Origin: Antedon mediterranea
Lineage: Eukaryota > Echinodermata > Crinoidea > Comatulida > Antedonidae
Direction of reading: 5' to 3'
NCBI RefSeq assembly: GCF_964355755.1
Contig: NC_092677.1
Coordinates: forward strand, 1,803,001-1,867,000
DNA: 64,000 bases
Shown: positions 12,001 through 42,530 of the stretch, piece by piece
Layout of the letters: every line of letters begins with the position of its first letter
Position numbering within the stretch: the stretch's first letter is position 1
Position numbers and translations under genes: made by a program
The notes under the pieces: generated by a model
What the model saw: only the letters and a program-made list of their open reading frames with translations
The model's database searches: none
Told to the model about the DNA's origin: nothing

Positions 12001-14048
12001 CTGAGCTCGTCCCAGTTGACCTCAACAAGCTCACCGGACGTACATTTGTTATTTACAAATTTGGTGTCTTCATTTCTAAGTTAGTTGCCACAAACTGTGG
12101 ACATCAACCAGTTACTCTTCTCCTAGCCGAGAAGATTCCCAACAACCCTAACTTGACTAAGAATGCTTACAGGAACTCATACCACTTTGATGATGTGAAC
12201 CAGATTCTGTATATGAGACTCAACAGACTAGATTTTGTTGGTGATTTTGTACTGGTGCTTGTGCATGCTCTGGCACATATCAAGATAGGTAGGTATTTTA
12301 TGGATACATACAAATGGTATAACAAATGGTTACCTTGGTACAAACATGTAAAAGCGTGTAGATCTATATAAAACGGCAAGCCGCATTTACTTTACACAGT
12401 GACAAACTATCATGTGAAACCAAGGAACTTTTTATTGATCTAAATCTAAAGGTTGCATTGATTAATGTTTTCTAGGTGATATGATTGATGACACCGACCA
12501 AGAATTTACCCGTGAATTCTACAACGCCCTCTCGACAGTCTGCAATGATCTGTTCTTTGCACGATATCGTCGAACCAGCGCCCTCACACAGGCCGAGCAA
12601 GAGCTATCGGCAGAGCAGAAGGAGAAGGAAGAGAAGAGTTCTCGTATGTTACTTGAATCTTTGTTTGGGGATTCACATGCTAATGCTGATAGTGAGAATG
12701 TTATGGAACAACTTCTGGATATGCAGCTGATGAGAGGCTCTGATAGCTCTGGAGTTAACCTTACACAAGAACAGATGAATGAACGGTATACTTAATAAAT
12801 CATTTTTTTACATGAACAAATTTGATTTGATTTGATTATTTGTCTTTAAAGTACTATCCAATTAGATTTAGACAGCCTAGATATTTTGTAAGATTTTAGT
12901 TGAAAATTTCATTTATTTGACCATACAGATAAAATAGGTCAGAGAAATAATAGTCTGTCATCAGCGTATTAAACCTCTTCTTTCATTTTCCATCAGGTTA
13001 AGCAAATACAACAACACCTCTGTGAACATACAAATGAGGAACTTCTTGGGAAGCGTTGAGGACAAAATGACTCTTGCCAAACAGCACGGCACAAACGACA
13101 AGGTTGATGAACGGTTATCTCAACTGACTGGCAAGACAGTGCTAACACGACGTGTCGCTCCTCAACCTGGAAAAGACTTGATTGATCAACTTCCGGGCGA
13201 ACTTAGTGGAACAGCAATGTGGAAGAAGTCAATATCGGAGACAATTGCTAGACAGTATGCAGGAGGACGCATCCAGCTGGCCACTGATAAGGCCGCAAAC
13301 AAAGATCTGTTCTACACATTTTTTCAGGTTAGCATTTTTTCTGAAATAAGTAACCAAATAATTGTTTTCTTTTCGTATTATTATTTCATTTATGCCTTGC
13401 TAAAAACTTCTGGCAGTTTTGTAGTTCTTCCTTTGTAATTTCACTACTAATACAATTCTTTTAGGATGAGGTAAAATCACTTGAAGAGAAAATCGATAAC
13501 CTTAGTGAGCAGTTTTCCAGCCTTAGTAAACAAGTCTTGGAACGGCAAGAGAAAGTACATGGTCTGGGCAATGAGTTGAAACAACAGAAAGACTTGGTGC
13601 AAAAGAGTGATGGAAAGGTAAGTCAACAGCTAGGCTAAAACATCAAAATTCAAACATTGACTACATACAGTATAGTAAGTGGGCAGTCAGATAAGGACTA
13701 TAAACCGCATAGGTCTAACAAGAACCTAGTACATATTTCAAGACGAGTAGGGGGTTACCTCTCGTTAACAGATGAAGGAGCGAGCGCCTTAAATGGCAGG
13801 AGGCCCTGTGGTTTGTTTTTAACTTTTTAATGTTTGTCATACATTGTTATTCCTTCCATCAACAGACATCTGCCATTAAGGACACAACAGAACAACTAAG
13901 TATGACTCAATCAAGTCTGACTACACTGATTGCAAAACGTGCCAACACGTCGCATCGACTAGAAATGTTCCGCAAAGAACTTGAGGATCGTCAAGCACAA
14001 CTACAAATGTATCGAGAAAAAAGTGCAAGAAAAGAAACACGAAAATAA
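17..14048 (+). CDS. Giant cysteine-rich, single-pass membrane, coiled-coil protein (5' partial, 30 exons)
   Basis: I assembled 30 exons with AG/GT borders and continuous frame: 17-125, 447-715, 857-1012, 1300-1515, 1695-1809, 1971-2167, 2634-2846, 3313-3586, 3986-4130, 4256-4388, 4636-5154, 5370-5538, 5817-6190, 6384-6613, 6979-7215, 7446-7640, 7867-8070, 8397-8576, 8807-9103, 9268-9492, 9741-10025, 10140-10656, 10784-10947, 11058-11327, 11590-11803, 11959-12288, 12476-12785, 12997-13327, 13465-13617, 13866-14048. They sum to 2,403 residues plus stop. The order is Cys-rich ectodomain (about 1-520), membrane-proximal region (520-780), transmembrane helix (about 783-802), charged coiled coil (to about 1965) and a C-terminal domain. 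The protein is probably a cell-surface or ciliary-membrane protein with a large cytoplasmic rod, but I do not recognise a named gene. The signal peptide and start lie upstream of the window. The intact frame across all junctions makes the gene model strong; the function is unknown. Confidence 0.9.
150..365 (+). mobile_element. tRNA-derived SINE-like fragment in intron
   Basis: The stretch has a B-box-like GGTTCGAGACC at 190-200, then GTCAAGGTACTTTACTTAC and a later CACCCAGTATAAAA. From memory this order matches the tRNA-like head and conserved central part of SINEs common in marine invertebrates and fishes. It lies wholly inside intron 126-446. The ends and target duplications are not clear. 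Confidence 0.45.
1064..1201. mobile_element. MITE copy 1 (AGCTCTGTCTACACTATCAAA family)
   Basis: This is a roughly 138-bp intronic element. The left end AGCTCTATCTACACTATCAA is matched by the inverted right end TTGATAGTGTAGACAGAGCT. The middle has CATATATGGACACGATG and a partly inverted CATATATGGGCACATC, so the whole unit folds on itself. Three more copies lie in other introns of this gene. It has no coding capacity and is a non-autonomous DNA transposon. Confidence 0.8.
4256..5154 (+). other. Exons for the membrane-proximal beta-rich region
   Basis: Three exons link the Cys-rich part to the membrane helix. Exon 4636-5154 alone encodes 173 residues with few cysteines and an alternating hydrophobic pattern, including YPVY, FDYSEF, FAHVFTESGQYVF and a late TCPDG. 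The run of a His-containing strand followed by G-x-Y-x-F recalls cupredoxin-like folds, but I cannot show copper ligands. An RRR cluster near 4699-4707 followed by a hydrophobic stretch could be a basic processing site. The domain assignment is inference from pattern only. Confidence 0.4.
5301..5340. mobile_element. MITE copy 2, internally deleted
   Basis: Only the left terminal repeat (ATCTGTCTACACTATCAAAA) and the last bases of the right one (GACAGAGCTTTA) remain, joined directly. It lies just upstream of the transmembrane exon, so the deletion leaves a very short remnant near a splice acceptor. Confidence 0.6.
5370..5538 (+). other. Exon for the transmembrane helix and stop-transfer segment
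   Basis: The exon opens with about 20 hydrophobic residues (MLAFLFACVVMLVVAVIVW) and then a basic and aromatic stretch with KMWKPRYR. This is a clear single transmembrane helix with a positive-inside flank, which places the cysteine-rich modules outside and the coiled coil in the cytoplasm (type I topology). The exon joins its neighbours in phase 1 and phase 2, so skipping it would shift the frame rather than give a clean soluble form. Confidence 0.85.
8240..8373. mobile_element. MITE copy 3
   Basis: The left end AAGCTTTGTCTACACTATCA and the right end TTGATAGTGTAGACAATGCC bracket the same CATATATG...GGGCACATC core as copy 1. It ends about 24 bases before the exon at 8397. Confidence 0.75.
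9501..9650. mobile_element. MITE copy 4, right end decayed
   Basis: The left end AAGCTCTGTCTACACTATCA is intact and starts eight bases after the exon border at 9492. The core is partly duplicated (two ACTACCATATTTGG units), and the right terminal repeat is reduced to GTCAAAGTTTGATTG. Confidence 0.7.
11959..14048 (+). other. Exons for the conserved-looking C-terminal domain with HxxxH motif
   Basis: Exons 26-30 encode a folded-looking domain of about 210 residues and then a short terminal coiled coil. The core includes GRTFVIYKFGVF, then LYMRLNRLDFVGDF, then LVHALAHIKIGDM near residue 2070, and then an acidic D-D-T-D-x-E-F with FYNALS. The H-A-L-A-H sequence in a hydrophobic helix looks like the HxxxH of gluzincin metallopeptidases, but the catalytic glutamate of HExxH is absent. 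The last exons (13465-14048) return to coiled coil and end with a lysine/arginine-rich tail. I do not recognise the family. The domain is unlike the low-complexity rod and is the best handle for finding homologues. Confidence 0.65.
13675..13805 (+). mobile_element. SINE-derived fragment in intron
   Basis: GATAAGGACTATAAACC at 13691-13707, with a flanking GGCAGTC and a later TACCTCTCGTTAAC, resembles a central block I recall from SINEs of several marine animals. It lies between the last two coding exons. The ends are not defined. Confidence 0.4.
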
Positions 14049-14202
14049 AAATTCACATAGAAAATAATTCAAAACGCACCAACATCTTTATGTTTATCAT
14101 AAATTGTCATAGTAATTTATTTAACATTTTTGGCAACAAATATATAATTTTTGTCTTCTATCTATATTTTTGATAAAATATTTATATAGAATGTTTTGTA
14201 TC

Positions 14203-14530
14203 CATTTAAATTGTCTGTAAACCCAGTTGTAATATACTGCCCAGTTTATGTGTACTTCTAAAACCTTAGTACAACTGTGTAATCATTTTAAATTGTCTGT
14301 AAACCCAGTTGTAATATACTGTCCAGTTTATGTGTACTTCTAAAACCTTAGTACAACTGTGTAATCATTTTAAATTGTCTGTAAACCCAGTTCTAATATA
14401 CTGCCCAGTTTATGTGTACTTCTAAAACCTTAGTACAACTGTGTAATCATTTTAAATTGTCTGTAAACCCAGTTGTAATATACTGCCCAGTTTATGTGTA
14501 CTTCTAAAACCTTAGTACAACTGTGTAATC
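14203..14530 (+). repeat. 82-bp tandem repeat, four copies, in 3' UTR or flank
   Basis: Four near-identical units each contain TAAATTGTCTGTAAACCCAG, ATACTGCCCAGTTTATG and CCTTAGTACAACTGTGTAA. The period is 82 bp. Differences are single bases (for example CTGTCC for CTGCCC in copy 2 and CAGTTCTAA in copy 3), so the array is young. It starts about 155 bases after the stop codon and ends before the nearest AATAAA, so it would be in the 3' UTR if that signal is used. Confidence 0.9.
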
Positions 14531-14595
14531 TTCCACAAGTGATGTGTTCCATACCACTTCTTCATCACAATTTTTGTTTTACTTTGTGAGCTTTT

Positions 14596-14601
14596 AATAA
14601 A
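14596..14601 (+). terminator. Candidate polyadenylation signal of the giant membrane protein gene
   Basis: The AATAAA is the first good copy after the stop codon (14046-14048) and after the 82-bp repeat array, and it is followed by T-rich sequence. Other AATAAA-like sites follow in this AT-rich DNA, so the choice is tentative. Confidence 0.4.
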
Positions 14602-17366
14602 GTAGTAACACATTATAAATTATTCCTACAAAGAGTGTTACAGTGAAAGTATCGAGTCTATTCGATTTTTACCTTTTATATAATCATTAAAATCATGATT
14701 GTAGATTAATTTAGCATAAAATACAGCTTGGATTCAAATGATATTATGTAGTTGAAATATTTTGTAAGAAGTATTTCCTGAAATCCGTCCTATTTTTATA
14801 TCACCTTGATTTTGTAAATTTATGGTATGCATATAAGAACATTTGTTTATAAATATATTTTTGTGAATTTCTTAATTTTATCACCTTAAATTATATTGTA
14901 ATGTATAAAATTCTTTCTAAATCCGTCCATTTTTACATTTGCACCTTGATATTAAATCAGTACTTTTGTTATTAATAAGTTTATTATTGATTAATTAATA
15001 GTATATTAAATCATACTATCTGGCAGCTTTGGCAACACTAACTTTCTAACATGCCTTTTAATATACCTACTATTTCTAACAGTGCATTTACATTATAATA
15101 GTGTGCCTTTTAAAATCAATTACTAAATTCATTCATTATTACTTTCATTTTAATTTTAATGATAAACTCATTGCCTTTCAACATTATAACTTGATACATT
15201 CCATATTCATGTATTTATTGTGTAAATATTGTTTGGTGTTTTTTTTAATAATATTTTTTGGTATAGAAGAAATAAATAATTTTAAAATTGTACAGAAATT
15301 GTAAATGTACTAATAAGGAGATTATGCTCACAAAGCTAGTTTTATAAATATTATTAAAATAATGTCTAGAGATTAGATTTTAAATGACCATTCTTAGTGG
15401 TAAAAACTAAAGTTGAGTGGATATCTGTTAATATACTTTACACAGAGCTATGTTTTTTAGATGTAATTGTAAGTGTGCTTTACATAGTATTTGTATAAAT
15501 TAGAGATATTTGATAATTATATTCAGAATACTTATATAAGTTTACAAGCACATAGTATTTAAGACAATGACAGAACCAAGTTAAAGTAAGATGTCCCTTC
15601 TATCAACCTGTTACATTCACTAAGTTCTACTGTTGCGGGAGATGAAGCTACTTCACACATTGAAAGACCAAGAACCAAGTTAAAGTAAGATGTCCCTTCT
15701 ATCGACCTGTTACAGTCACTAAGTTCTACTGTTGCGGGAGATGAAGCTACTTCACACATTGAAAGACCAAGAACCAAGTTAAAGTAAGATGTCCCTTCTA
15801 TCGACCTGTTACAGTCACTAAATTCTATTGTTGTGGGAGACAAAACTACTTTACACATTGGAAGACCATGAAGGAATTCCTCCATGGACAGCTGATGTTG
15901 ATAAATGCCCGATTAGTAATTATAAATCTGGACGCCCTATCGAGACATTATGGGAACCCACGATCAGTAGTCATCAATATTTTGTTCATTGGTTCTGTCA
16001 GCATAAGATTTCATTTTTATTATACTATAGTTATTTTTTTCATTTCTTATATTTATTTGCACTATAACATTGCCAAATGTCAATAAAAGTGATTTCATCC
16101 AATGTTATAATTGTTTGTTTCCATGTTACCTGATCATTGGATCTTTGAGGTATACTTTTATTGTCAGCTTCTTCTAATATATCTTAAATGTTCACCTTAT
16201 CACTCTGTCAAATAATATTATATTATGTGGTTATGTTGCTTTATATGTAAGACCTATGTATCCAAGTTCATTCAGTAACGATTCAAAACAATGAGTTTCT
16301 TTCCATTTCTCCATCATAAAAGACTATGTTTTTACCAATCCTTTATGCATACATCTGGTGCACAAATGGGGAATTAATGTATAGCCTATCTTTGTAGTAA
16401 ACAGCCCATCTTTGTAGTAAACAGCCCTTTCACCAAAATCAACTCCACCCGCAACAAAATATACAATGAATTAAAAAACATCTAGTACATTATTAAGAAT
16501 ACAAAAACAAAATATATTTATGTTAAATTTATTTTAAATGAAATTTTCTTCAAACATTTACAAAGTGTAATCTGACTTATTGCGTTAAATGCGATAGAAA
16601 TGATCAAGGTTGTGAACAGGTTTAGACCCGAGACCTGTGCTGTGGAAATGTATGGCGTCATGATAGCAACACCAAAATCTAGAACCTAGACCGACATGTG
16701 GGCAGCGTGAGAATGCTACTGTATGGCCAGAAGGGAAATATGACCATGGAAAATGAATACAATATCTGATGAAATAGTCGTGTTATGGTGTATTTCTATT
16801 AAAACATATTTTTATTGAAGTTATACGAATTGATGTAACAATGTCTGAACTTATCATTTTAGATTATCATACAGCCAATATTGATATATTTCATATTATC
16901 ATTTTTTTGTTTATAATAATAAAATATGTTATAATAGACCGTCATAGTTTGGCAACAGTGTCTGGTATAGCGGGATTAAACCTAATAATATTGTAATATA
17001 TGCTGGTTGCATCATCAAAACATAAATTACAGTATTGTACCAATTGCGTACAATTTGAAATGACCCTGTTCATTTAAAAAACAAATTACTGATTGTACTG
17101 CAGTATTTACAACACTTACTGCAGTAAATATACTACAGTAAATATTGTATTCATCTCACAAAATCAAACCAAATAGTAAAGCCTACATTATTCTTCTAGG
17201 TAATATTATTCACATCATCATTATTGATTCTTAAGAAACAGTATTTTCCATTTTCTTATTTTCAGCATGATTATAAATTTACAAACTAAACATCAATTTC
17301 TGCTAAAACAAATACATAATTACAAAAAAAACGTTTCTAATTCTTTTAAAATTGTGCATAAGTTTT
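14602..17366. other. Convergent intergenic gap with 3' flank of two genes
   Basis: No supported coding exon is seen. The block is AT-rich, with TA-rich runs near 14800-15550. It holds the 99-bp repeat (15573-15869) and, at the far end, the 3' UTR of the minus-strand SPA17-like gene. A reverse-strand AATAAA (TTTATT at 16528-16533) may serve that gene. Confidence 0.6.
15573..15869. repeat. 99-bp tandem repeat, three copies
   Basis: Units start with GAACCAAGTTAAAGTAAGAT at 15573, 15672 and 15771. Copies 1 and 2 are almost identical and copy 3 is diverged. Because 99 is a multiple of three, the minus strand stays open across the array with a 33-residue repeating translation, but no start context, splice partner or domain supports a gene. 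Confidence 0.85.
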
Positions 17367-18563
17367 TCAGTTCTCTTTTGCATCAGTTGTATCGTTTGGT
17401 TTCGCTTCCTCCTCAGTCCCGCCATCTTTCTTCATTGCTTTTCTTGCCATCATACCTACAAATGTTAAAAAGAGGTTATTTTTTTAGCAAAACAAAAATT
17501 GTTTGGAAACAATGTCAAGTTGGTTCTTTTAAAGAAATTTGAACATTTATAATTAATGAGTAATAACAATTTAATTTCCACAAAAAATCAAAATAACTAG
17601 CTCATTATTTGTTTAAAACAACCAAGAATGAGCTATAGTAATTATTATGAATTTTCTTCCTAGCTGAAACCACCTGTGTGGTATGCAAATTAGACTTGTT
17701 GATGCACGGTTCAATGCATTGGTGGGTTTAGTTTTGTAGACAGTGGATCTAAAAAAAACATTGCTTCTAGCTGAAAGCATTTGTGGTATGCAAATTAAAC
17801 TTTACATAATATGCATTCAGTTTTAGAAGGTATTGAGAGTTGCTAATGCATGGCTCAGTGCATTGGTTGCTTCAGTTCTGTAGAGTGTAGATCTATAAAA
17901 GCATTGTTCTGTATATAAACTGCAAGCAGTGTTCAAATCACTGTTTGCTCTCTATGTGATAGAAGGAAATGTGTGTCTTCACAGGGCTACAACAAGTTTG
18001 GATTTTATACAAGTTTCATGTGGATAACAACGTCAATACTACTTATTATTACTACTTATTATTACTACTTTGTTTGAAATGATTATACTTGGATATACTG
18101 GCTGGATTTATAGGACATTTATAGAAGGTAAGAATTTTAAGATTATAAATTAAGACTAATATTAATTGTAAGCATGGTGGTAGATATTAGATCCCTCCAT
18201 GGTGTGAGGCTGCTGTATCTTAAACCTACCTTAAGTATAAGGCTGTGAAGGTACCTTAAGGACTATAATATTTTAGTGTAAGCAGTTTATAAATATTATG
18301 ATTGCAATAAAGATTATTAGATTATTAGATGATTTGAGATCCCTCCATGATGTATTGTAAAACTGAGGTACTTTTAGGACAGGTCTATCTTGGTCTGTGA
18401 TTGTGTTAACGACTCTTACTACTACAGGTGTGCAAATCTCACCTTTAAACCCAGCTTGAATTTTGACTGTTGCATCAGCGACCTTTGGGTCATTCAGGTC
18501 AATATCTATTTCTTCCTCTTCTTCATTCTTTGTTTCTTGTGCAGCTGGGGGAGGGGCATCCAC
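17367..18563 (-). other. SPA17: Last two SPA17 exons with the sixth IQ motif and stop
   Basis: Exon 18563-18443 repeats the EEIDIDLNDPxVAxAxVKIQ block and ends in phase 1 inside the IQ motif. Exon 17455-17367 completes it (GMMARKAMKK) and gives a short acidic tail before TGA at 17369-17367. The split position inside the IQ motif matches that between exons 24726 and 23708, so these exon pairs share a common origin. Confidence 0.9.
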
Positions 18564-21500
18564 CTAACATGAGGGAATATCACAACCACTTCATAAATAA
18601 TGATAATAGTGTAATAATGTAGGTGAACTAAACAACACATGCACAGTCAACTCTCCCAATACCGGGCCGAAAGTGTTTCCAACGGTAAAAATAAATTTGG
18701 GACGTCAAAAAAGTCTTGTTTTGGGAGAGTTGACTGTACTAGAAAAGATATTTGAATAACAAAAAGTAATTAATTAGTTTAAAATTAAAAGTAACACAAT
18801 ATAAATTAGTTATTAAATAACTTGAGAAAAAAAAAGTTTTTATAATATAGAAATAAATAGATTATATCATAAATAGAACATGAAGAAACTTCCTAAATAT
18901 AAACAAGAAGAAGTTAGTAAAATATAAATGTTAGAAGCAAGTGATTTGTTAGTAACAAGCATCCAATCAGGAGCTGTTAAGGAGTAAAAATATAAATGTT
19001 AGAGGCAAGCAATTTGTTAGACTTGTGTTAGTAACAAACATATCCAATCAGGAGCCGTTAAGCATGTAGCGTTAGCTGTTAGTAATATGCATAACCAATG
19101 AAGATGAGCTGTTTAATGTTGCTGGCAGCAAAGCATGAAGCAATGTGGCAGTCATACTACCTTTGCTGATGTTTCACTGATGTTAGAAGACTTAGGAGAT
19201 GGTTCAGTAGATTTATCATCCTGTTGCATATTTGTCTCATTATTCTGGTTTTCTGCTGCTACTTCTTCAACTTCTGTCTCCTGCTTTGTTTCATCAGTCT
19301 TGGTGATGTCATCTGTAACATTTTCTTGTGATCCAGTTACTTGGTGGTTTGATATCTTTTCAGAAGTCTCTGCTTGCTTTTCAGCTGGAATGCTTTCCTC
19401 TTTCTCTTTTGCTTCTGGTGCCAATTCTGTTTCAGTGGCATCTTTTATTTCCTCTTTTTCTTCTGGTACCAATTCCGTTTCAGCGACATCTTTTACTTCC
19501 TCTTTCTCTTCTGCTTGTGGTACCAATTCAGTTTCAGTGGTATCTTTTGCTTCCACTTCTGCTTCTGGTACCAATTCTGTTTCAGTGGTATCTTTTACTT
19601 CCTCTTTCACTTCTGCTTCTGGTACCAATTCTGTTCCAGCGACATCTTTTACTTCCTCTTTCACTTCTGCTTCTGGTACCAATTCTGTTATAGTGGTATC
19701 GTTTACTTCCTCTTTATCTTCTACTTTTTGTTCCAATTCTGTTTCAGCAATATCTTTTATTTCCTCTTTTTCTTCTGTTTTAGTGACATCTTTTATTTCC
19801 TCTTTCGTTTCTGCTACTTCTTGTAACAATTCCGTTTCAGTAACATCATCAATTTTTCTATCTTCTTCTGATTTAGCTGTCTCCAGTTTAGATGTTTCAC
19901 TCGGTTTTAAATTTTCTAGTTCCTCCTTCATTTCTCGATCCTCATCATCATCTGTATCCATCTTCTCTTCACCTTCCTGTTTGGTATTCTCATCTTGTTG
20001 CTTCTCTTCCTGTGATAGGACTACTGTAGGTTGTTCTTCAATTGTTTTGTCCTCTTGTGAAATACTTGCTACAGGGGTCTTGTTTTCAGACGGCTGTCTC
20101 TCTTCTGTCTGTGAAATGTGGGAATCTTCACCAGTTGTCTGACCAGTAGTCTGACCAGCAGTTGTCTGACCAGCAGTTGTCTGACCAGCAGTTGTCTGAC
20201 CAGTAGATTGAAGTGAATGCTCCGAGACCTGATCAACTGTCTATGGTCATAGTGCAGAAAATAGTAAAAATTACAATCAACACATACACAGTGCAAATGA
20301 AATACATGCAAGCCATTTAAACATGTAGGATTTACATTCAAACATGTGGATTTACATTTAAAATGCAGCAGATTTTCGGCACTGTATCTTAACTTGCCGA
20401 GTATCTCTGGCAAATTCCGTGTGTTTCACATATGACACCTGTGATACAGTGAAACACATTAGATGCTGTATTATGGAGTTTGCCTATGATACTGGTCATA
20501 TATTGTCATATGTGGTCAAGAAAAGCACCTTATGCATCCAATTAGCATGATATTATGAAGTGCTTTGCTGCATCATGCACTTATATTGTATAAACAATGA
20601 GCTGTTAGATTAATTGATTTAATATTTATTACATTCATTTTTTTTTTGTTACTGTAATAGATGTCACTATGAACAAGATCATTTATCAAATAATGTAGTT
20701 TAAATTTGTATTGGTTTAAACTATTAATGTTTTATATTACTGTCAACCATTGACAAATATAAACATAGTGTTTAACACGTGGCTGGATATATATATCTGT
20801 AGAATGAAACATATGGTTTCACACCATGGCCAAAACAGAACTTTATTTTACATAATCAGTTGACGTTGAGCTCGTATTTTACGAGCGTAAATTAATCCAG
20901 AGACTTGCCTTGACTGTTTGGATTTTGTGTTTAGTGTTGCGTAAAGTGTCTACATACAATTCCCACTTTAAAGGCTTTCTAATGAGCTGTGATGATACGT
21001 TTCAACTTTATAATGTATTGGATGCAAACTCATTTAGATTTCAATGATTGTGTAACACAATTTAAGGAATAAATTTCTACTTTACAAAATATTTTTTTTC
21101 TCGATTATTAGCAACAATTTTTTATTTTTTTTTGATTGATACATCATGTTTTATCACAATGTTTATCAAAATGAGACTAGCCTGAGAAATGTTATTATAA
21201 TGTACAAAATATTGGAAAATGACAAAATGTAAAAAAACATTGTATGAATGCTATGCATGACATGTTCATGTAAAGAAAATGTTAATTAGTTTGACAATGT
21301 TGATTTGAGTTTGAAGGATTTACAGTTTATGACAAAAATAATCTAATTAGTAGTAGTACATGCCAAATGTTAAATGATGACAGTGCATTTTTTGAGACAA
21401 GCAGTTAATTTGTTAAAATTGTCTCTGTACACTGCAATCTAAAATTAAAGGGGTTTAATTTCATTGGTCAACAATTACTGTTATCATTTACACACCGTTT

Positions 21501-24500
21501 CAGTTGCATCCTGGGAAGGTTCTGCTGTTTCATCAGCCACTGGTTGTTCATCTACAGGCTATAATACAATGTGGAAAAGGACAAGGGAATACATCTACAT
21601 TATTTAACAAAATACATACATTATTTTACAAAATAACAACAAAACACAAAATGAAACAAAATAATAAATACACTACAGGACAGTTATATGATTGGTTAAA
21701 AGTAACACACCTTTTCCGTTGCATCCTGGGAAGGTTCTGCTGTTTCATCTGGAATGGCCTCTGGTTGTTTTTCTACAGGCTATAATACAATGTTGAAAGG
21801 GACAAGGGAATACATATACATTATTTAACAAAATAACAACAAAACACAAAATGAAACAAAATAATAAATATATTACAGGACAGTTATATGATTGGTTAAA
21901 GGTTCTTACACACCTTTTCAGTTGCATCCTGGGAAGGTTCTGTTGTTTCATCTGTAACTGCCACTGGTTGTTCTTCTACAGGCTATAATAATAGCATTGA
22001 AAGGGACAATGAAATACATACATTCTTTAACAAAATACATACATTCTTTAACAAAATAATAAATACACTACAGGACAGTTATATGATTGGTTAAAAGTAA
22101 CACACCTTTTCCGTTGCATCCTGGGAAGGTTCTGCTGTTTCATCTGGAATGGCCTCTGGTTGTTTTTCTACAGGCTATAATACAATGTTGAAAGGGACAA
22201 GGGAATACATATACATTATTTAACAAAATAACAACAAAACACAAAATGAAACAAAATAATAAATATATTACAGGACAGTTATATGATTGGTTAAAGGTTC
22301 TTACACACCTTTTCAGTTGCATCCTGGGAAGGTTCTGTTGTTTCATCTGTAACTGCCACTGGTTGTTCTTCTACAGGCTATAATAATAGCATTGAAAGGG
22401 ACAATGAAATACATACATTCTTTAACAAAATACATACATTCTTTAACAAAATAATAAATACACTACAGGACAGTTATATGATTGGTTAAAGGTTACACAC
22501 CTTTTCCGTTGCATCCTGGGAAGGTTCTGTTGTTTCATCTGGAATGGCCTCTAGTTGTTCTTCTACAGGCTGAATTGAAAGGGAATACATTTAACAAAAT
22601 AATGTTAACACAATACACGACAAAGAATAAACAAAAATATGTCATGATGATTGGTTAAAGGTTACACACCTTTTCAGTTGCATCCTGGGAAGGTTCATCA
22701 TCTTCCGCAGCTTCAGTTGGTACATCAACTGGTTGTTCCACAGGCTATAAACAGTTAAACATAATCACAAAACTCATAAACTGGAACACTGGAATACATT
22801 ACACAATAAACGACAATAAACCATTAAAATATCAGTATGTCAAAGGCCTTTGCTACACACCTTATCAGATGCATCCTGCGAAGGTTCTACTGGTTCATCC
22901 TGTACTGACTGGTCCTCTACAGTCTATTAGTTACAACAAAGTATATGAAATTAAATATATTCAAATTTGTGCAAGGCAAAGGTAGGAAAGGGAAGGCGTT
23001 TGTTGCCAAGCATTAGTCATTTTATAAAAATACACATGCAAAAATGTGTACTTATGCAAATGAGCACATATACACAGTAGTACATAGCATCACTACTCAT
23101 GCTTGACAAAAGATTTTGCACTTGCATTAAGATTCAGTACTTACCTGCATTAAGAACCTGTACTTACCTGTATTAAGTACTTATGTGTAACTCTGCCTTA
23201 TGCAAAGCTTAAATGCATATATTATGAGTAATTCTGATGTATAATTGGGTCTAATGATATCATTGACCGTTATTTTACCTCTTTTGCTGGTTCGTCTTCT
23301 CCATCTTTCTTTTTCATTTCTTTCCTTGCTTTAAATCCTTTGAATGATGCTTGGATTTTGGTAGCAGCCTTTTCTACCTCTGGATCATTTAGATCAATGT
23401 CAACCTCCTCTTCTTGCGGTGCCACTGCGGGTGGATCCTTCAAAAGACAATTCAACTTATGAAGTTGGATGTAATTAAAATGCATCTTTCAAGACAAGCA
23501 CAGGGTTACCCCGGAGTACTAGTTGACATGGACAGATTAGATATATCTATCCATCAATTATGAGTTAAATGGTTGTATAAAAAGTGCTGAATTACAAAAT
23601 TACCATTTTTTCTTCTTCTTTCTTTTCCGTTTCAACAGTCGTTGATTCCTCTTCTGCAATCTTTGTGGTACTTTCACTTTCTTTCTTCTCTTTTCTTAGT
23701 TTGAACCCCTAAGAAATATTAATATTTATTCAAGTTTCAATTTAGTTCCAAATTGCATATTTATAAGACAATTTGATGATATAAGTGGTTAAGATAAAGC
23801 AATAATGGAGGCAAAAACCCAAAAAAGCAAAGATCGTTTTTCTGGCTCAGTTTTCTTACTACTACTACTAATCGGTGGCACAATAACAAACTACACAAAC
23901 ATTTAATAAAAGAAAGTAAAACCAAATTGATTACAAATTTATAAACTATAAAGTGAAGAAATCTTTCATTCACTTCATATTTGGTATCTTACGTTTTTAA
24001 ATTACAATCTTGAATTAATTTGGAACATTAAAAATTAATCAAATAAATTAATTATTGATCTTTTGAAGTAATTTTTCGTATTAATAGCCCGTAGCTTTTG
24101 TTAATGACTTGGACCAGGTACCCGTGCAATGTACACATTGTCTTGCAGTAGCTACACTATGTAACATGAAATACCTAATTATATCTACTCTATTCTATAT
24201 CTCTGGGTTTGCTTAATTGTTTAAAATATAATAATTAATATTAATTAAATCATTCTAAAATAGAATTTGAAATTAGCGTTGCATTAGCAAAACAAAATGT
24301 ATGTAATGTAAACATGAATTAAATAAATTAATATTTAAATTATTCTCATGACTAATGTTGCTTGATTATTTGTGAAAATGTTTAAACTATATAGTTTAGA
24401 ATGTAGACATCGTAACAAAATTATACTGTATATGTTGACGTTCCTTAAAGATATATTCTGTGTATATGTTTATTGAATATCGCCATTGTCACAATACTCT

Positions 24501-27500
24501 TACTGTTCTTTCAAAAATTTCAAAACATTAGAAACATTTTTTTAATGTTTCTCTTTAATATAAATGTTACTATTTATTTTGTTGCCACTGGTAACAAGTC
24601 AGTAATTTCTACAGATGACATACTGTAACTGTTCATTTTCATTTTATCTTAAAATTAAAACTACAAAGTGGGTTATTTAAAATGTTTACTTTATTTTTGC
24701 GGAAAATGTTTTCACAAAAACTTACCTTGAAAGATGCCTGGATTTTTACAGCAGCTTTCTCCACTTCTGGATCATTCAAGTCTATGTCAATTTCTTCTTC
24801 TTGTTTCTCGCTTGATTTGTCTGTTGTCTGCTCACTTTCTTTTACCTCGCTCGTTGGTGATCCTTCGGCGTCCTCTTTAGGTCCTTCTGCTTGTTGTGTT
24901 TGTTTCTCGTCACTTGATGCCTGAAAGAAAATATCAAAGATTGATAATGATGCTACAACTCAAGTTTATATCCATTTTTTTTATTTATTGTGTTAAAATA
25001 ACTTATATAATTCAAGAATCAATTTAGTAATTCCAATTGATGACATCACATTACTATAATACTATTAAGTATTAATATTATTAATAATTGTCAGCGCTCA
25101 CCTGTTTAAAAATTCTGAATACAAGGGAAACTAAAACCGCTCTTACTGACTAATATCTCATCATAAATATTAGTATTGATTATTTAAATTAAAAGTAAAA
25201 AGTGAAAACCAGAAATGCATCATATTGTTAACATTTTTAGAAACTCACGAGTATAAAAATCAATAAAAACAATTATTTTATTGTTGTTCTTTATGCATAA
25301 TCCATAGGATATAATTAGGCGAATATATTAACATACTATTATATTTATTTGTATACAAATATTTAAGCTGCAAGTGCAATACTTTATAAATAAACTAGAA
25401 AGATTTATACTTAAATTTGCAATACAATAGTAGGCATACTGTATTTTAGGCAATTAAGTAAAATGCTGACAATCGACGTATTCGATTTGGACTTTTATAT
25501 GAGTATAAGTTTTGTTGTAGTATTGTAAGAATTGAGATACAACAAACAAGCATTCATTAGTTTACTCAAATTAAGATCGTTTCAGTTGAGGACAAAGTCA
25601 ATTGTTACAGTAACTTTAAAAAATAAAATATAGTAATTACAAAAGAACCTCCCAATTAAAATTTAAATGGGTGCCCCAGGACCTTATTGTGTGCAGAACT
25701 ATTGTTAAAACACCCCTACCTTCAAAATGAACTTGTCTACTACTTCTCTACTAAACTGTGCAACAATATTGATGCTACTATTTTGATACAACGCAAGGCA
25801 CTATTTGTAGGAATTACTAAAGGATAACAGATTTCATTACACATCATATTGATTGGTGTTATTGATCTAAACTCCTTTAGACCAAGCAGCATACAAAAGA
25901 AAACATTATAACCCAGTAAAACAGCAGCGTATTATTTAATACTGATATCTGGCTGTTGATATTAAAAAGCAATGTATTATTAGTACATTGAGTTATTATA
26001 AAACTAAAATATTGCATTTGCAATCTCAACTTAAGCAGACATATTAAAGTAACTACTTTCATTACCCATTAGCAAAATACAAAATGTTTAAATATTTTTA
26101 CGTACGTTATATTACCTACAGTATGCTGTTTAGTCATTTGGATACATTTTTTTTTCATAGGCATCTTTCAAAAATTATGCATAACATTGTAAACTACTGT
26201 ATGTGAAAAAAAATCTAAAATTAAAACAATTTTAAAGAAAATTCCAAATGAATCTAACATGGAAAGAGAATCAGATCGATGAATATTACATTTAAATCAA
26301 GTTTCATTTTATTTAACTCAAATCTAATTCAACAATGATCTGCTAGTTTCAATTAATTTACAAAATTTGAAAGAAGTCCAGATTAGAAACACCTGGTGCA
26401 AATCCATGTAAATATCATGGACTAAGCTACCATCAATGAAACAGCATACATTGAATAATAATATTCACACCAATAATCTTGCATACTGTACTGTATTTTT
26501 AAAAATTTCAAAAAACATTTTTTAAATGTTAGTATTTATTTTGTTGTCACTGGTAACAAATCAGGATTGCTATACAGATTAGATACTGTAAACTACAGAT
26601 TAGATACTGTAAACTACAGATTAGATACTGTAAACTACAGATTAGATACTGTAAACTACAGATTAGATACTGTAAACTACAGATAGCAAACTGTAAACTA
26701 CAAATGACATACTGTAAACTAAAGATGACATACTGTAAACTAAAGATGACATACTGTAAACTAGAGATGACATACTGTAAACTAAAGATGACATACTGTA
26801 AACTAAAGATGATGACATACTGTAAACTAGATATGACATACTGTAAACTACAGATGACATACTGTAAACTAGAGATGACATACTGTAAACTAGAGATGAC
26901 ATACTGTAAACTAAAGATGACATACTGTAAACTAGAGATGACATACTGTAAACTAGAGATGACATACTGTAAACTAGAGATGACATACTGTAAACTAGAT
27001 ATGACATACTGTAAACTAGATATGACATACTGTAAACTAGATATGACATACTGTAAACTACAGATGACATACTGTAAACTAGATATGACATACTGTAAAC
27101 TAGAGATGACATACTGTAAACTAGAGATGACATACTGTAAACTAGAGATGACATACTGTAAACTAGAGATGACATACTGTAAACTAAAGATGATGAAATA
27201 CTGTAAACTAAAGATGATGAAATACTGTAAACTAAAGATGATGAAATACTGTAAACTACAGATGACATACTGTAAACTACAGATGACATACTGTAATTTC
27301 TACAGATGACATACTGTAATTTCTACAGATGACATACTGTAATTTCTACAGATGACATACTGTAATTTCTACAGATGACATACTGTAAACTAGAGATGAC
27401 ATACTGTAAACTAGAGATGACATACTGTAAACTAGATATGACATACTGTAAACTAGATATGACATACTGTAAACTAGATATGACATACTGTAAACTAGAT

Positions 27501-30500
27501 ATGACATACTGTAAACTACAGATGACATACTGTAAACTAGAGATGACATACTGTAAACTAGAGATGACATACTGTAAACTAAAGATGATGAAATACTGTA
27601 AACTAAAGATGATGAAATACTGTAAACTAAAGATGATGAAATACTGTAAACTACAGATGACATACTGTAAACTACAGATGACATACTGTAAACTACAGAT
27701 GACATACTGTAATTTCTACAGATGACATACTGTAATTTCTACAAATGACATACTGTAATTTCTACAGATGACACACTGTAATTTCTACAGATGACACACT
27801 GTAAACTAGAGATGGCATACAGTAAACTAGAGTAGATATGACATACTGTAAACTAGAGATGACATACTATAGACTACAGATAACATACTGTAATTTCTAC
27901 AGATGACACACTGTAAACTAGAGTTGACACACTGTAAACTAGAGATGACACACTGTAAACTAGAGATGACACACTGTAAACTAGAGATGACACACTGTAA
28001 ACTACAGATGACATACTCTAAACTACAGATGACTGACAGTTGTAAACTTTCCACGATCTCTTCATCTCAAATATCACAACTTTCGCCTAGTACAGTATGA
28101 TGTCATCTATCCTACAGTTACAGTACATCACAAACCTCTGTTCGCATAAACAAATTACTAACCGCACAAATCATGTTTAATCAAATTGGTACAGTACTAA
28201 CCTGTGTCCACACTAATAATGAGACATTACAATATTACTATAACTAACCTGTTTTCACAATAATAAAACATATAGTATTCACATAAATTCCCTATGTTAC
28301 TAGGCGGTGTTCACATTGATAAATGGCATACACATAATATGGCTAATGAGTACGCAGTGTTGCTATTTTCACAGCATGATCTATTACCCAAAAGGCAAGT
28401 GGTTAGGCTAGGTTCATCAACCATAGGGGGTGATTATAGACAGATATTGAATGCACAGCTGTAGAAACGAGCCATTCCAGGAGGACGACGCTGCAGCAGT
28501 GTCATGAATTTACAGCAGTGTGTGTGGATCGATGATACGGAACAGTCACAAGGTGATATCAAAATTGGATTGATACGTTGAAAGAAATTGTAATTAATTG
28601 GGTTTATTTAAATTAAACACCGTTTTCTGTATCAATCAACAATTCTGATCTGTGAACTATCGAGTTTAGATAGGTAACAATCCATGATTATTAGTTACAT
28701 TGTCAATAAAGTGAAAATAAAATTAAGTAAAAACTAATAACAATAAATATATATTGCTTATTCACAGGTATTAAGAATAGAATAACTGTTAAGTAAGAAC
28801 TCTTCTTAATCACCCTCTCATCTTTATCTCATCAAACGACTTGAAGACTACTTTTTTTAATAAGAATTCAAATTAAAAAGTCTTAAAAAGCACTTTGACC
28901 AAACTTGACCCCTTGATTGTACTGTAGTGCAATTCAAACAATTTATAATCCAAATAACAATTTCTTGTGACATTTTCCAATTAAAATACACTACGTTTCA
29001 TATCATCTTTAACCTACAACAATTTCTTTAGCAATGCACAAAACAAAATGAAAAACAAAATTTTTAAAATTAAAATCCAGTAGGTATATTGCCTTCCAGC
29101 ACAAAGATGTAATCAATTTCTATTGAGACTTTACAAAGGCGTCGCTATAGTTACACAAGTACGCTTTTATTGCTTATTAAGCCCAATAAAGCATCAACAA
29201 TGTCGGGTACAAATTTTATTTAAATTAATATTTAAGTACTTTACATTGAAAATTGGGATATCATACCATTGATGCATCAGAATTTAAACATAATTTATAA
29301 TAAAAATGTTGAAATAAATACCTCTTTCAGTTCTTTTCTTTTCTTGTGGCCTCTAAATCCAGCCTGAATCTTGGATGCTGCCTTTGCAACTTCTGGATCA
29401 TTCAAGTCTATGTCAATTACTTCTTCTTCCTCAGGTTCTTCCTTTACTTTTTCCTTTTCTTCAGTTCCTTCTGCTTGTTGTTCTCTATGGAAAATAAAAT
29501 AAATTGTAATACAGTATAATACAGTGAGCCTGTATGTTTAAAATTTTAGTATAATGTTATAATATCTTTAATATGATACATTACAGGCATACAGTAGATA
29601 GTCCAGATGTACAGTACATTATCTGCATGTATATTTTAATTTATATTTCATTTATTTAAAAGTTTAATAATTTAGAAACACCTGTTATCCAGGCACCTGC
29701 GTACTTACCTTTCAAAATTAATTAACTACTGTAAATTAATAATTACTTTAGACGACCTAAACTTAAGATAACACAACTATAAAAAAAAAAACTATTTTAA
29801 AATTATTTTAAATTGTAAAAGTAAATTTACCAAAACAGACAAAACTTGTTGAGCAATATGGAACAAGAAATATCGCCGAACACTGACGGACTCGCATCAA
29901 ACCAAACAAACAATATCATTACAGCATTCTATTACTGTACTTATATTATACATAGGCCATATCAAAATATTATTAAGTTACTACTGTATACTTGTATTAT
30001 CAAAAGACAATCATAACAAAATTACTTTGTAAATAGCACTCTATATAAATTAAATCACAAATTAACTTGTGCAACTCCCCGTAAATATGTACGCATTTGT
30101 TTTAGAAATCTAATTTTTTTATTTTTTGCATTAAGAATAAAAAGGGTTCTAAAATAAAAATTATTCTAAATTGGCTCGATGAGAAACTAAGCTGTTATTT
30201 GTATTGCCACATTGGTGGAAGATTGTTATTGTACTTTTATATTTTGTAATCAGGTACAAACACTGAAAGCACAGAAATGAATATTACTACAAACAATAAA
30301 TAATATTAAAGCCCAGCTAATATATTTGATATTATTAATTTGGGTGTAACCATTAAAATAGAGGGGTGTGTTCACATGTTTGATGTTTTGAGAAAAAATA
30401 AAACATTACTTTCAGGTGTCACCGTTGGGAACTTGAAATTAGGCAGGGTGGAAGACTATAAAGGTGTCCCACCCATATTGTAGTATAAATGTGTACTGTT

Positions 30501-33500: not shown

Positions 33501-35680
33501 AAATAATCATTATAAATATAAATAGAAAAAGGCCTAGGCCTAGTACAAAAGATGTTAATTTGATGTACAAAACTTGTTGTCTAATTTGTGATAATATTAA
33601 AGGTTTTATGTTAAATCGTGTGTATTTCATTTATTGCTCCATTATTATAATAAAAAGAAGGGAATCGTGAAATGTCATTAATTATTTAGCCCCAAGAATG
33701 TATTGATTTTATAGTATTTTACCAATTTAAACAGTCCAGGCCTAGCTTGCAGACAGTCCCCCCCCCCCCACCCACTTCTTAATAATTTTAAGAAAAATGA
33801 AAGTTCAACACTTTATTTCAAAATTTATAAGCCCTTTGTCATCATATTTTAAGATTATGAATCAGCCACTTAACAAGAATAACAATCGAGGGGCCAATGA
33901 TTAAGCGCATCTTCCCTCATTCTCTTCGCCTAAGAAAACGATTATTCCAGCCCTGCCGCGTCTCCCTAGGCCTACGCGCAACGTGCTTTCGCTTAAAACA
34001 GACCTATATTCAACTCCTTATAGAATTTGTTTGAAAAATAACACCAAGCTTATTTTTGAAAATCTTAGAAAATACATATAAGACTATATTATACCGTTTT
34101 CAGAATTTCATTTAAAAATTCCAAATTAATGTTAACTATTTTAACAAACTAGTTAGTTTTCACTTTCTTGTTTTCGTCGTATGACTCGCTTTGTTTACGC
34201 TTACACTTGGCTTAGACGTTTATCTTAGAATTCGAATAAATGAATCCATAATCAACAAAAATTGGTACTGTTGTGGTTTTTGTTTAATATAAATGTTCCT
34301 AATACACAGAAATCAATTAAACAGCAATATAATTTAATATAAACGAGTTAAAAAGGAAATTTAGACAGCCTATAAAATACGGAAGTCAGAACTCGCGTCG
34401 CTCGTAATGTTCGGTAACTTTCTATTTATAGCCTATCGAAAAAGGCTCTGGCTAACTTTTAAATTAAAAAGGCTCTCGGAACACTTAATTTCCCATTATC
34501 ACTATTTGACGTGGATGTGCTATATGTTCTGTCAAAGGGAAATGAGTTCTTTCTTAATGTACTTCTTATGTCTTTGATTTGATTATAATTCCTTTTAATA
34601 ATTATCTATTATTGGTTGAATAAATATAAAACAACGTACTTCAAAGCTTTGACCTGTTTTCTTGCCTCATGGCCTCGGAACGAAGACTGAATCTTGAGGG
34701 CAGCATCTTCTTCTGACATTTGCTTAGTGACGTCACTCTCTTCGGTCTTGTTTTCTTCTGCTTTAAGTTCTTCAGCCTTTGCCTGTGCTTGGTTCATTCG
34801 CACACCACTCTGGATCTTAGTGGCTGCTGCTTGTTGCTGAGGGTCACTCACATCTCCAATGTTGTTACCCTAAAGTATACATTTAGTAAGATAGAATGAG
34901 AATGTATGAATAGTTTGACATAGTGGATTAATAAATGGATGATGTCAGTTTTTTTATGAATGGTTGGACAACAGAGTGATGGGCATGTCATAATATAGAT
35001 GTGATTTTTGTGTTTCATTGATGTGATATTGTTATTTATTTATTGTGGTATTTATAATATATTATTCGGTCCAGCTGTTTTTTTCAATTTTTGGGTTAAA
35101 TAAAGAATTTTACTTTGACATATAGGCCTATAGTATTATGACGCAATTTATGGTAAGTGTTGCTCTCACAATCTTATGATCATTGATAAATGATGATGAT
35201 ACTGCTACTATTTCACTGATTAATCTGATACAACTGGTCAGCGAGTTTGGTTTTGTGTATTTTATTATTATTTTGTGTTTTACCTTCTCAAACGCCTTAT
35301 TGTTGTAGTACCTGTCCTCATGCTTTGCACCAACGTCTGCTGGATCTATACCTTGCTCTGAAGCAACACCAAAAAAGATTCATAAAAGAAGTTCAAATAA
35401 ATTTTTTTTTTAAATAGAATTGTAGGCCTACTCTATAGCCTATAATAGGTTACATTTTAGTACCAGAATGATTTAGTTTACAACAGTTCTATAAGTAGGA
35501 AACAAAATAAAAATGAATTTAGTTACCTTCACGAATCTTCAAAAGGTTGTCAAAATAGACAGCCGAAAACGCATAAATGTTGTCAGGTTGATTTCTCAAG
35601 ACTTCCCTGGCAAGGCCCTCCAAAAGATTTTGAAATCCTCTTGGCACTCGCAATTTAGTGTTTGAGAAAGGCACAGACAT
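17367..35680 (-). CDS. SPA17: Expanded sperm autoantigenic protein 17 (RIIa domain plus six IQ motifs), 18 coding exons
   Basis: Exons in transcript order: 35680-35527, 35357-35284, 34869-34640, 29484-29322, 24920-24726, 23708-23604, 23437-23279, 22923-22861, 22744-22670, 22569-22501, 22377-22309, 22174-22106, 21982-21914, 21779-21711, 21558-21496, 20240-19161, 18563-18443, 17455-17367. All junctions hold frame, giving 971 residues. The first two exons encode an Sp17-type RIIa domain (MSVPFSNTKLRVPRGF, LLEGLAREVLRNQPDN, ending HEDRYYNNKAF). IQ cores (K-I-Q) lie near residues 94, 135, 191, 266, 334 and 936. RIIa domains dock to AKAP helices in sperm tails and cilia; IQ motifs bind calmodulin. 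Mammalian SP17 is about 150 residues with one IQ, so this is a greatly extended form. The upstream neighbour on the same strand is ETHE1. Extra or alternative exons cannot be excluded. Confidence 0.88.
17650..17920. repeat. Diverged tandem duplication in intron, about 120 bp per copy
   Basis: Both copies carry TAGCTGAAA, GTGGTATGCAAATTA, a CAATGCATTGG or CAGTGCATTGG block and GTAGA...GATCTA. The second copy ends in TCTATAAAAGCATTG. The order is conserved with many substitutions, so the duplication is old. It lies in the last SPA17 intron. Confidence 0.55.
18639..18740. mobile_element. pogo/Tigger-like MITE with inverted ends
   Basis: The left end ACAGTCAACTCTCCCAATAC and the right end GGGAGAGTTGACTGT are inverted matches about 100 bp apart in an SPA17 intron. 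The terminal CAGTCAACTCTCC is similar to the CAGTCGACTCTCC at 58741, and such ends are typical of pogo/Tigger elements. There is no coding content. Confidence 0.6.
18919..19072. repeat. Diverged two-copy tandem repeat in intron
   Basis: AAATATAAATGTTAGA, then GCAAG...TTTGTTAG, then CCAATCAGGAGC and a GTTAAG occur twice, about 80-90 bases apart. The duplication lies directly beside the large acidic exon, in the intron. Confidence 0.6.
19161..20240 (-). other. SPA17: Large acidic repeat exon of SPA17
   Basis: This 1,080-nt exon encodes 360 residues (about 543-902). It begins with a short T-T-A-G-Q repeat (20133-20202) and continues with about ten imperfect units of the type T-E-T-E-L-V-P-E-A with E-V-K-E-E-V-K-D. 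It is almost free of aromatic and cysteine residues and very acidic, so it is probably disordered. It makes up over a third of the protein. The opposite strand is also open over most of the exon because of the codon bias, but I treat that as a shadow. Confidence 0.85.
21496..22923 (-). repeat. SPA17: Array of eight tandemly duplicated small coding exons in SPA17
   Basis: Eight exons of 63, 75, 69, 69, 69, 69, 69 and 63 nt, all phase 0, encode variants of P-V-E-E-Q-P-x-A-I-P-D-E-T and then E-P-S-Q-D-A-T-E-K. Each is followed by the same GTGTGTAA-type donor. Introns are also repeated: a roughly 395-bp unit holding two exons is nearly identical between about 21.70-22.10 and 22.10-22.50 kb. The units are acidic and unstructured, so the array acts as a spacer whose length can change without frame loss. 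Confidence 0.93.
24569..24630. repeat. Single-copy seed of the SPA17 intron minisatellite
   Basis: TTATTTTGTTGCCACTGGTA followed by TAATTTCTACAGATGACATACTGTAACT matches the flank and the unit of the large minisatellite at 26.5-28.0 kb, but here the unit occurs once. It lies just downstream of the exon border at 24726 in transcript terms. Confidence 0.65.
26575..28033. repeat. 1.46-kb minisatellite of 18-21-bp units in SPA17 intron
   Basis: About 75 units read GATGACATACTGTAAACTA with variants (AGAG, AGAT, AAAG or ACAG before ATGA; ATGATGA insertions; TAATTTCTACA in place of AAACTA). The first units are a 21-bp form, CAGATTAGATACTGTAAACTA. Higher-order blocks are visible: the run with AGATATGACATACTG units is repeated near 27000 and 27430, and the ATGATGAAATACTG triplet near 27190 and 27585. 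Long open frames on both strands are by-products of the repeat. Confidence 0.95.
29485..34639 (-). other. Large SPA17 intron (about 5.2 kb)
   Basis: No coding exon was found that fits between the exons at 34640 and 29484, which join in phase 2. The intron is AT-rich with CpG-containing patches near 32090-32240 and 33090-33150. AGGCCTAGGCCT palindromes occur at about 33151 and 33530, and a poly-C run lies near 33765. An inner promoter in the CpG patches is possible but not shown. Confidence 0.5.
35284..35680 (-). other. SPA17: SPA17 RIIa dimerisation/docking exons
   Basis: Exon 35680-35527 starts with ATG preceded by AACA. It encodes the RIIa helices including LLEGLAREVLRNQPDN and FSAVYFDNLLKIRE. 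Exon 35357-35284 follows in phase 1 with IDPADVGAKHEDRYYNN, the block that in Sp17 follows the RIIa fold. The similarity to the family runs over about 76 residues and is the main reason for naming the gene. Confidence 0.92.
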
Positions 35681-36209: not shown

Positions 36210-36684
36210 TTTTTGTACTACAGCAATAATCTGATCTACTCATAATTACAATTTCCCAAAATCTTTGACCGTACTTGGTTTACTCAATGTCTTTCAGTAT
36301 TATATACAGACATATCATGAAATATAAACCTCTTGTTAAAATAGATATATTGTATGGTATGGTATCCACAACTTGGTCTTCTACCACACTTTGCAAATAG
36401 TTTTAATTTGACCACTATGCCCATAATACTAGAAAAATAAATTCTGCCTCTGCTTAGATTAAATGAAGATTAAATTAATATAATATTCTGGGCTACTTTA
36501 AAGTGCCAATGTTCATTAATTGTTTTTCTTGTTCAATTATAATTATTCTCGATGTACGTATTTACATGATTAGTTTTGGGTAATACCAGATTTGGTATAG
36601 GTATATCACCCAGTGTATCACACCATAGTGAATACCGTGTGTCTACAGCATTAAGTTTCCCATAAGATTTCATCTTGGCAATTG

Positions 36685-42240: not shown

Positions 42241-42530
42241 GGCCGGATAGCTCAGTTGGTAGAGCGTCGTGGAACACGATTATCATGGGTTCAAACCCTA
42301 TGCCGGTCGGTGGAAAAGAGTTAAAGCTATGCGAGCTTCTGTGTTTGGGGTTCACAGATTTGAACGTCCCCCTTTCCACCACACATCATGAGGCAATAAC
42401 ATCAAAGCATCTGATGTGTGGTATCCCCAAGGCTGTGAGAGGGCCTTACCGTGCTAGAGGCAAGGGAGCACACCATAATTTTTATTTGTCTTCCCGCCTC
42501 TTTCCGATCTCGTAAATTTTATGTTTGGCG
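42241..42530 (+). mobile_element. tRNA-derived SINE with tRNA-like head
   Basis: The head has TAGCTCAGTTGGTAGAGC (A box and D arm) and GGTTCAAACCC (B box), with a 5-bp T stem and partial acceptor pairing (GGCCGGA with GCCGGTC). The anticodon stem is shortened and loop position 33 is not U, so it is not a functional tRNA. A non-tRNA body follows, ending in GAGCACACCATAA and T-rich sequence. A related body end is seen at 41570-41650. Confidence 0.7.

Follow-up and report, generated by a model that had tools for sequence, protein, structure and literature searches.

Within a 64,000 nt window of the genome of the crinoid Antedon mediterranea (the whole stretch of DNA analysed; contig NC_092677.1, positions 1,803,001–1,867,000), the minus strand carries a SPA17-like gene that contains a tandem array of eight short exons, in which a two-exon block, together with its introns, has apparently been duplicated recently. 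The reading that we favour is that of an enlarged SPA17-like gene whose array encodes a disordered, acidic spacer and has grown by exchange between introns; to this reading as a whole we assign a probability of approximately 0.72. A let-7 match in the assembly and a bindin domain (2.3e-28, with one internal stop in the read-through frame) point to an echinoderm, bindin being characteristic of that group. The coordinates of the gene's exons and of the duplicated segments, given as positions in the window, are listed in Table 1.

Each unit of the array is an acidic, PVEEQPVAVTDETTEPSQDATEK-like peptide of 21–25 residues, encoded by a phase-0 exon of 63–75 nt. Seven of the units (u1–u7) were detected by pattern, whilst u8, which ends in ACG and not AAG, was added by hand. 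All eight exons have a length that is a multiple of 3 (63, 69 or 75 nt only), are preceded by AG and followed by GTGTGT, and are separated by introns of 100, 116, 123, 134 or 152 nt. The gene's frame is free of stop codons in 8/8 units, and the other two minus-strand frames contain stops in seven and eight of them, respectively. As one plus-strand frame is likewise open in all eight units, the strand of the array, on which the initial annotation was silent, was assigned from the gene model as a whole and its splice sites. A search of the flanking introns for a ninth, decayed unit gave no convincing match (best E-value 0.022), and five of five protein matches to the units at an E-value of 0.001, in a scan of the 354 Mb assembly, fell inside the array. 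Since every exon is in phase 0, skipping would keep the frame, and the array might serve to produce spacers of varied length from a single gene by alternative splicing; we consider this unlikely, as the splice sites of the array score no weaker than those of the gene's other exons (7–8 of nine donor consensus positions compared with 6–9, and 9–12 pyrimidines out of 15 at the acceptor compared with 8–12).

The two copies of the block, 395 bp each, lie in tandem, and the run of identity that includes them measures 441 nt; in 200 dinucleotide shuffles of positions 21400–23000, the longest exact repeat was 15 nt. With 0/395 differences, the 95 % upper bound on the divergence between the copies is ∼0.8 % (rule of three), and a third, partial copy at 22445–22571 differs at five of 127 positions. 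Exons and introns of the array are about equally alike between units (u4 and u5 agree at 62/69 bases; introns i4 and i5 at 99/110 aligned bases, with 37 gap columns), which indicates that exons were duplicated along with their introns. All four genome matches of the block were located inside the array. A dispersed repeat was also considered as the source of the block and rejected, no copy outside the array being listed by a search that passes over simple repeats and highly frequent words.

The junction of the last duplication is preserved in intron i5. Its first 56 nt, along with 385 nt upstream, match the context of i7 (21559–21710), and its last 113 nt, along with 328 nt downstream, match the context of i3 (22378–22500); compared with i3, it differs at positions 7 and 10, and compared with i7, it diverges from position 57. 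As i5 matches i7 first and i3 last, the switch falls in the 46 nt common to all three introns. Joint duplication of exon and intron and a recombinant junction between homologous introns, the marks of an array built by unequal crossing-over, are thus both found here. In the simplest reading of the sequence, one such event would have turned a six-exon array into one of eight; it is solely as the simplest account that unequal crossing-over is favoured over slippage or template switching. That the second copy is a false tandem duplication created during assembly strikes us as most unlikely. The complete identity of the copies would fit such an error, but the window is free of any N, the neighbouring minisatellite of ∼1.5 kb was assembled through, and the recombination pattern is consistent in three introns, with diagnostic differences outside the block, although each of these observations could also accompany an artefact. 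The initial annotation had reported eight phase-0 exons of 63–75 nt coding for one acidic unit, a near-identical two-exon block within them and a recent duplication of that block with its introns. The first of these is borne out by the exon lengths and the AG/GT flanks, the stretch quoted for the second proves to be identical as DNA and not in translation alone, and the identical block and the mosaic structure of i5 both speak for the third.

A gene model built on splice sites, frames and the extent of open stretches has 18 exons that run from 35680 to 17367 and comprise 2,916 nt including the stop codon (971 residues); each of its junctions is in frame, and its one stop is terminal. For exon 1, the best three matches found by phmmer in the PDB are SPA17 chains (9fqr, 7my4 and 8j07, the last presumably an axoneme structure; E-values of the three 7.1e-19, 9.5e-19 and 5.6e-18), and the next is protein kinase A (PKA) RII, with an E-value of 3.3e-5. 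Searched as a whole, the protein matches Pfam RIIa with 43.1 bits (cut-off 22.4) and Pfam IQ (PF00612) with 97.6 bits (cut-off 20.3), the latter in five stretches at an E-value of 0.1; scored singly, five of the six IQ-like stretches exceed the cut-off and the first of exon 3 fails (17.5 versus 20.3). Three RIIa matches were listed by the genome scan, one of them at 35531–35638 in the window. Inspected by eye, the other two resemble what we take to be PKA RII and RI subunits, so that the one described here is the only SPA17-like match found. Both of the sequence features that we checked for the SPA17 family, an N-terminal docking/dimerization domain and IQ motifs downstream of it, are therefore present and, judged by its sequence, the gene is SPA17-like but enlarged, with a docking/dimerization domain, five IQ motifs above the cut-off, a sixth that falls short of it and a pair of long acidic stretches. 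The identity first proposed is upheld by the PDB and Pfam matches; the accompanying description as a sperm protein is overly narrow, two papers placing SPA17 or its partners in motile cilia (PMC8339350, PMC12203939).

Repeats occur in this gene both exon by exon, in the array, and inside one exon, exon 16, where units of ∼54/102 nt code for ETELVPEAEVKEEVKD-like acidic repeats and 15 nt units code for GQTTA-like repeats. Exon 16 has no Pfam match at an E-value of 0.01. A conserved leader, (I/V)DIDLNDP, is found in the IQ modules encoded by exons 4, 5, 7 and 17, and on this basis these modules too look like older intragenic duplicates; the leader itself may be a docking motif.

In our favoured reading, the SPA17-like protein would act in the axoneme as a dimeric scaffold, its acidic arm bearing a series of IQ motifs; it would dock on helices of the AKAP type, and calmodulin may be bound as well. 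Lying between the IQ module of exon 7 and that of exons 17–18, the last in the protein, the array would serve as a spacer that is disordered and negatively charged. With every unit a phase-0 exon flanked by splice sites of its own, recombination in the introns could add or remove units without a change of frame. In the last such event, i3 and the ancestor of i7 would have undergone unequal exchange within 46 bases that they shared, by which a two-exon segment was copied and the recombinant intron i5 left behind. The splicing of all eight exons, the disorder of the array, its role as a spacer, the binding of calmodulin and AKAPs and the order of events are what we infer. SPA17 is reported to form dimers and tetramers, to pair with ROPN1L in a heterodimer that binds AKAP18 more tightly, and to be conserved across metazoan phyla (PMC8339350); a perspective names it among the partners of motile-cilia AKAPs (PMC12203939).

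Further observations speak for this reading or against it. In its favour, the array has a net charge of −0.27 per residue and lies on the disordered side of the charge–hydropathy line, but everything past the docking domain was scored as disordered, so the test has little discrimination; no relative of the array was found amongst solved structures at E-values up to 1. A match to PF16697 in the whole protein remains below the cut-off (21.2 versus 33.2 bits) and is taken as chance. Against the reading, an identical block could arise as well by slippage, template switching or gene conversion. The remaining points, which fall on both sides, concern selection on the units. In favour, and pooled over six distinct unit types, the ratio of nonsynonymous to synonymous differences per site (pN/pS) was 0.49 (pN 0.14, pS 0.29; codon bootstrap 0.30–0.80), a value obtained from paralogues of one genome after the exact duplicates u6 and u7 were dropped, and from pairs that are related units and not independent. 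The ratio was at least 1 in 0.48 % of 5000 bootstrap replicates, and with all eight units pooled pS was 0.24 and pN 0.12. Against it, pN approaches or exceeds pS among the youngest units (0.09 and 0.13 for u4/u5), and u3 and u5 differ by three nonsynonymous and no synonymous changes, too few to interpret; such units give the test little power. The EPSQDATEK end of the unit is the least variable (pN 0.05 and pS 0.15, versus pN 0.22 and pS 0.38 for the first 17 columns), but as pS is low there too, its constancy may in part reflect homogenisation or a splicing signal. At most, these values suggest mild constraint on the units. Positive selection was considered as an explanation and is not supported, the pooled ratio and its interval lying below 1, and the fast evolution under selection that had been proposed for the array likewise gains no support.

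The same pooled ratio, which indicates constraint and not adaptive change, bears on whether the array is a functional length polymorphism, in which a selected exon number varies amongst individuals and tunes flagellar or sperm behaviour. Changes by two exons would be eased by the symmetric exons, the identical block and the 46 nt of intron homology; even so, with tandem duplications present in ordinary DNA of this genome as well, we judge this explanation to be quite unlikely. The comparison with ordinary DNA comes from 13 arbitrary 10 kb stretches of the same genome, in which tandem arrays were counted at a period of at least 60. One of the 13 (L006; 2 × 320 bp at 99 %) contains a comparable two-copy tandem duplication, another (L009) has 2.9 × 328 bp at 86 %, and L002, L007 and L011 have tandem arrays of shorter period. 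Four of the 13 (L001, L002, L006 and L013) contained exact repeats that were 80 nt or longer and recurred at shifts of 150–2999, with the shifts in L001 and L013 being multiples of 44 and 20, respectively, and thus minisatellite-like; the longest exact repeat in the sample was 261 nt, compared with 441 nt in the array. Recent tandem duplication is frequent in this genome, and the array is the longest exact case of the sample. As one background stretch in 13 holds a comparable duplication, that of the array needs no special selection.

It may also be that the array reflects neutral turnover of tandem repeats in a tolerant, disordered stretch of a repeat-rich genome, its length being irrelevant. 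In keeping with this, tandem arrays are found both elsewhere in the window and in the background sample, exon 16 has repeats of its own, and pN is close to pS in young units; the retention of frame and splice sites in 8/8 units and a pooled pN/pS below 1 speak against it. We regard neutral turnover as a serious contender that falls somewhat short of even odds; it is compatible with an enlarged gene that has grown by intron exchange, and departs from our favoured reading in that length would not matter.

Table 1. Exons of the SPA17-like gene and segments of the recent duplication (positions in the window)
Feature	Position	Strand	Size or evidence
Copy 1 of 395 bp two-exon block	21655..22049	-	395/395 bases identical to 22050-22444
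Copy 2 of 395 bp two-exon block	22050..22444	-	Identical to copy 1
Recombinant intron i5, junction of last duplication	21983..22105	-	Mosaic of i7 and i3
46 nt crossover interval in i5	22050..22095	-	Identical at 22445-22490 (i3) and 21655-21700 (i7)
Array exon u1 (TVEDQSVQDEPVEPSQDASDK)	22861..22923	-	63 nt
Array exon u2 (PVEQPVDVPTEAAEDDEPSQDATEK)	22670..22744	-	75 nt
Array exon u3, A-like	22501..22569	-	69 nt
Array exon u4, type B	22309..22377	-	69 nt
Array exon u5, type A	22106..22174	-	69 nt
Array exon u6, type B, same sequence as u4	21914..21982	-	69 nt
Array exon u7, type A, same sequence as u5	21711..21779	-	69 nt
Array exon u8 (PVDEQPVADETAEPSQDATET)	21496..21558	-	63 nt; splice sites and frame
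Coding part of exon 1, with start codon and RIIa docking/dimerization domain	35527..35680	-	phmmer and genome scan
Exon 2	35284..35357	-	Splice sites and frame
Exon 3: two IQ-like stretches, first below Pfam cut-off, second above	34640..34869	-	
Exon 4: IQ module	29322..29484	-	
Exon 5: IQ module, first part	24726..24920	-	
Exon 6: IQ module, second part	23604..23708	-	
Exon 7: IQ module	23279..23437	-	
Exon 16: 360 acidic residues; tandem repeats inside exon (19395-19876; 20132-20203)	19161..20240	-	
Exon 17: last IQ module, first part	18443..18563	-	
Exon 18: end of last IQ module and stop codon	17367..17455	-	

Additional features were observed in the window. A 21 bp minisatellite of ∼67 copies, with long open frames by repetition, occupies 26576–28033 in an intron of the SPA17-like gene. 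Upstream of the gene, on the minus strand, exons at 36600–39320 presumably belong to a gene resembling ETHE1, two of them having weak metallo-beta-lactamase matches below the cut-off; between these ETHE1-like exons lies a 27 bp minisatellite (37681–38232) whose long open frames encode PGQSYQAND repeats. The plus strand holds a probable gene at 433–14000, with cysteine-rich repeats followed by exons that by eye appear coiled-coil-like, and with an Ephrin_rec_like match at 2570–2860 (E-value 1.6e-8). An 82 bp tandem repeat, the central copies of which are 97–98 % alike, is located at 14118–14609, and a tRNA match of 41 bits at 42241–42309 is possibly, at a guess, the head of a short interspersed element (SINE).

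The array offers a young, clear case of a coding array growing through introns, in which the site of exchange can be confined to 46 bases; growth by unequal crossing-over predicts alleles that differ by two exons (395 bp). Furthermore, the gene suggests that SPA17, small in solved structures, can reach several times that size in a different animal, where it has additional IQ motifs and long acidic arms, and this would bear on models of the axoneme built on vertebrate SPA17. A bolder proposal, to which we give very little credence, is that of a genetic ruler in motile cilia: the number of mini-exons would set the arm length of an axonemal scaffold, exchange between introns would change it in steps of two exons (395 bp, 46 residues), and individuals or species would differ accordingly. 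In an incomplete library of the literature, we found no paper pairing the sperm surface protein Sp17 with an echinoderm, none joining SPA17, the doublet microtubule and cryo-EM, and none joining exon duplication, unequal crossing, intrinsic disorder and tandem repeats.

Among the closest known systems is SPA17 itself, the docking/dimerization domain giving the best match and being followed by IQ motifs; the present protein differs in its 971 modelled residues, versus 147 and 151 in two full PDB chains, in its five IQ motifs above the cut-off and in its two acidic repeat stretches. The PEVK region of titin, which is disordered, provides a second parallel, albeit in an unrelated protein and with a spring role for which the array has no known counterpart. 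As described in PMC6469411, the part of titin that is rich in P, E, V and K is repetitive and spread over many short exons, the number of which changes through block duplications; 113 PEVK exons are annotated in humans, however, compared with eight units here, and the titin duplications implicate LINE-1, whereas the last event in the array maps to 46 nt of intron homology. Dscam-type arrays likewise consist of tandemly duplicated exons within one gene, but PMC1397879 presents these as mutually exclusive alternatives, unlike the units described here, which are all in phase 0 and could all be joined. Set beside these systems, the array illustrates cleanly a process already known and not a new kind of system; to this process the mapped exchange interval and the prediction of two-exon steps are a useful addition.

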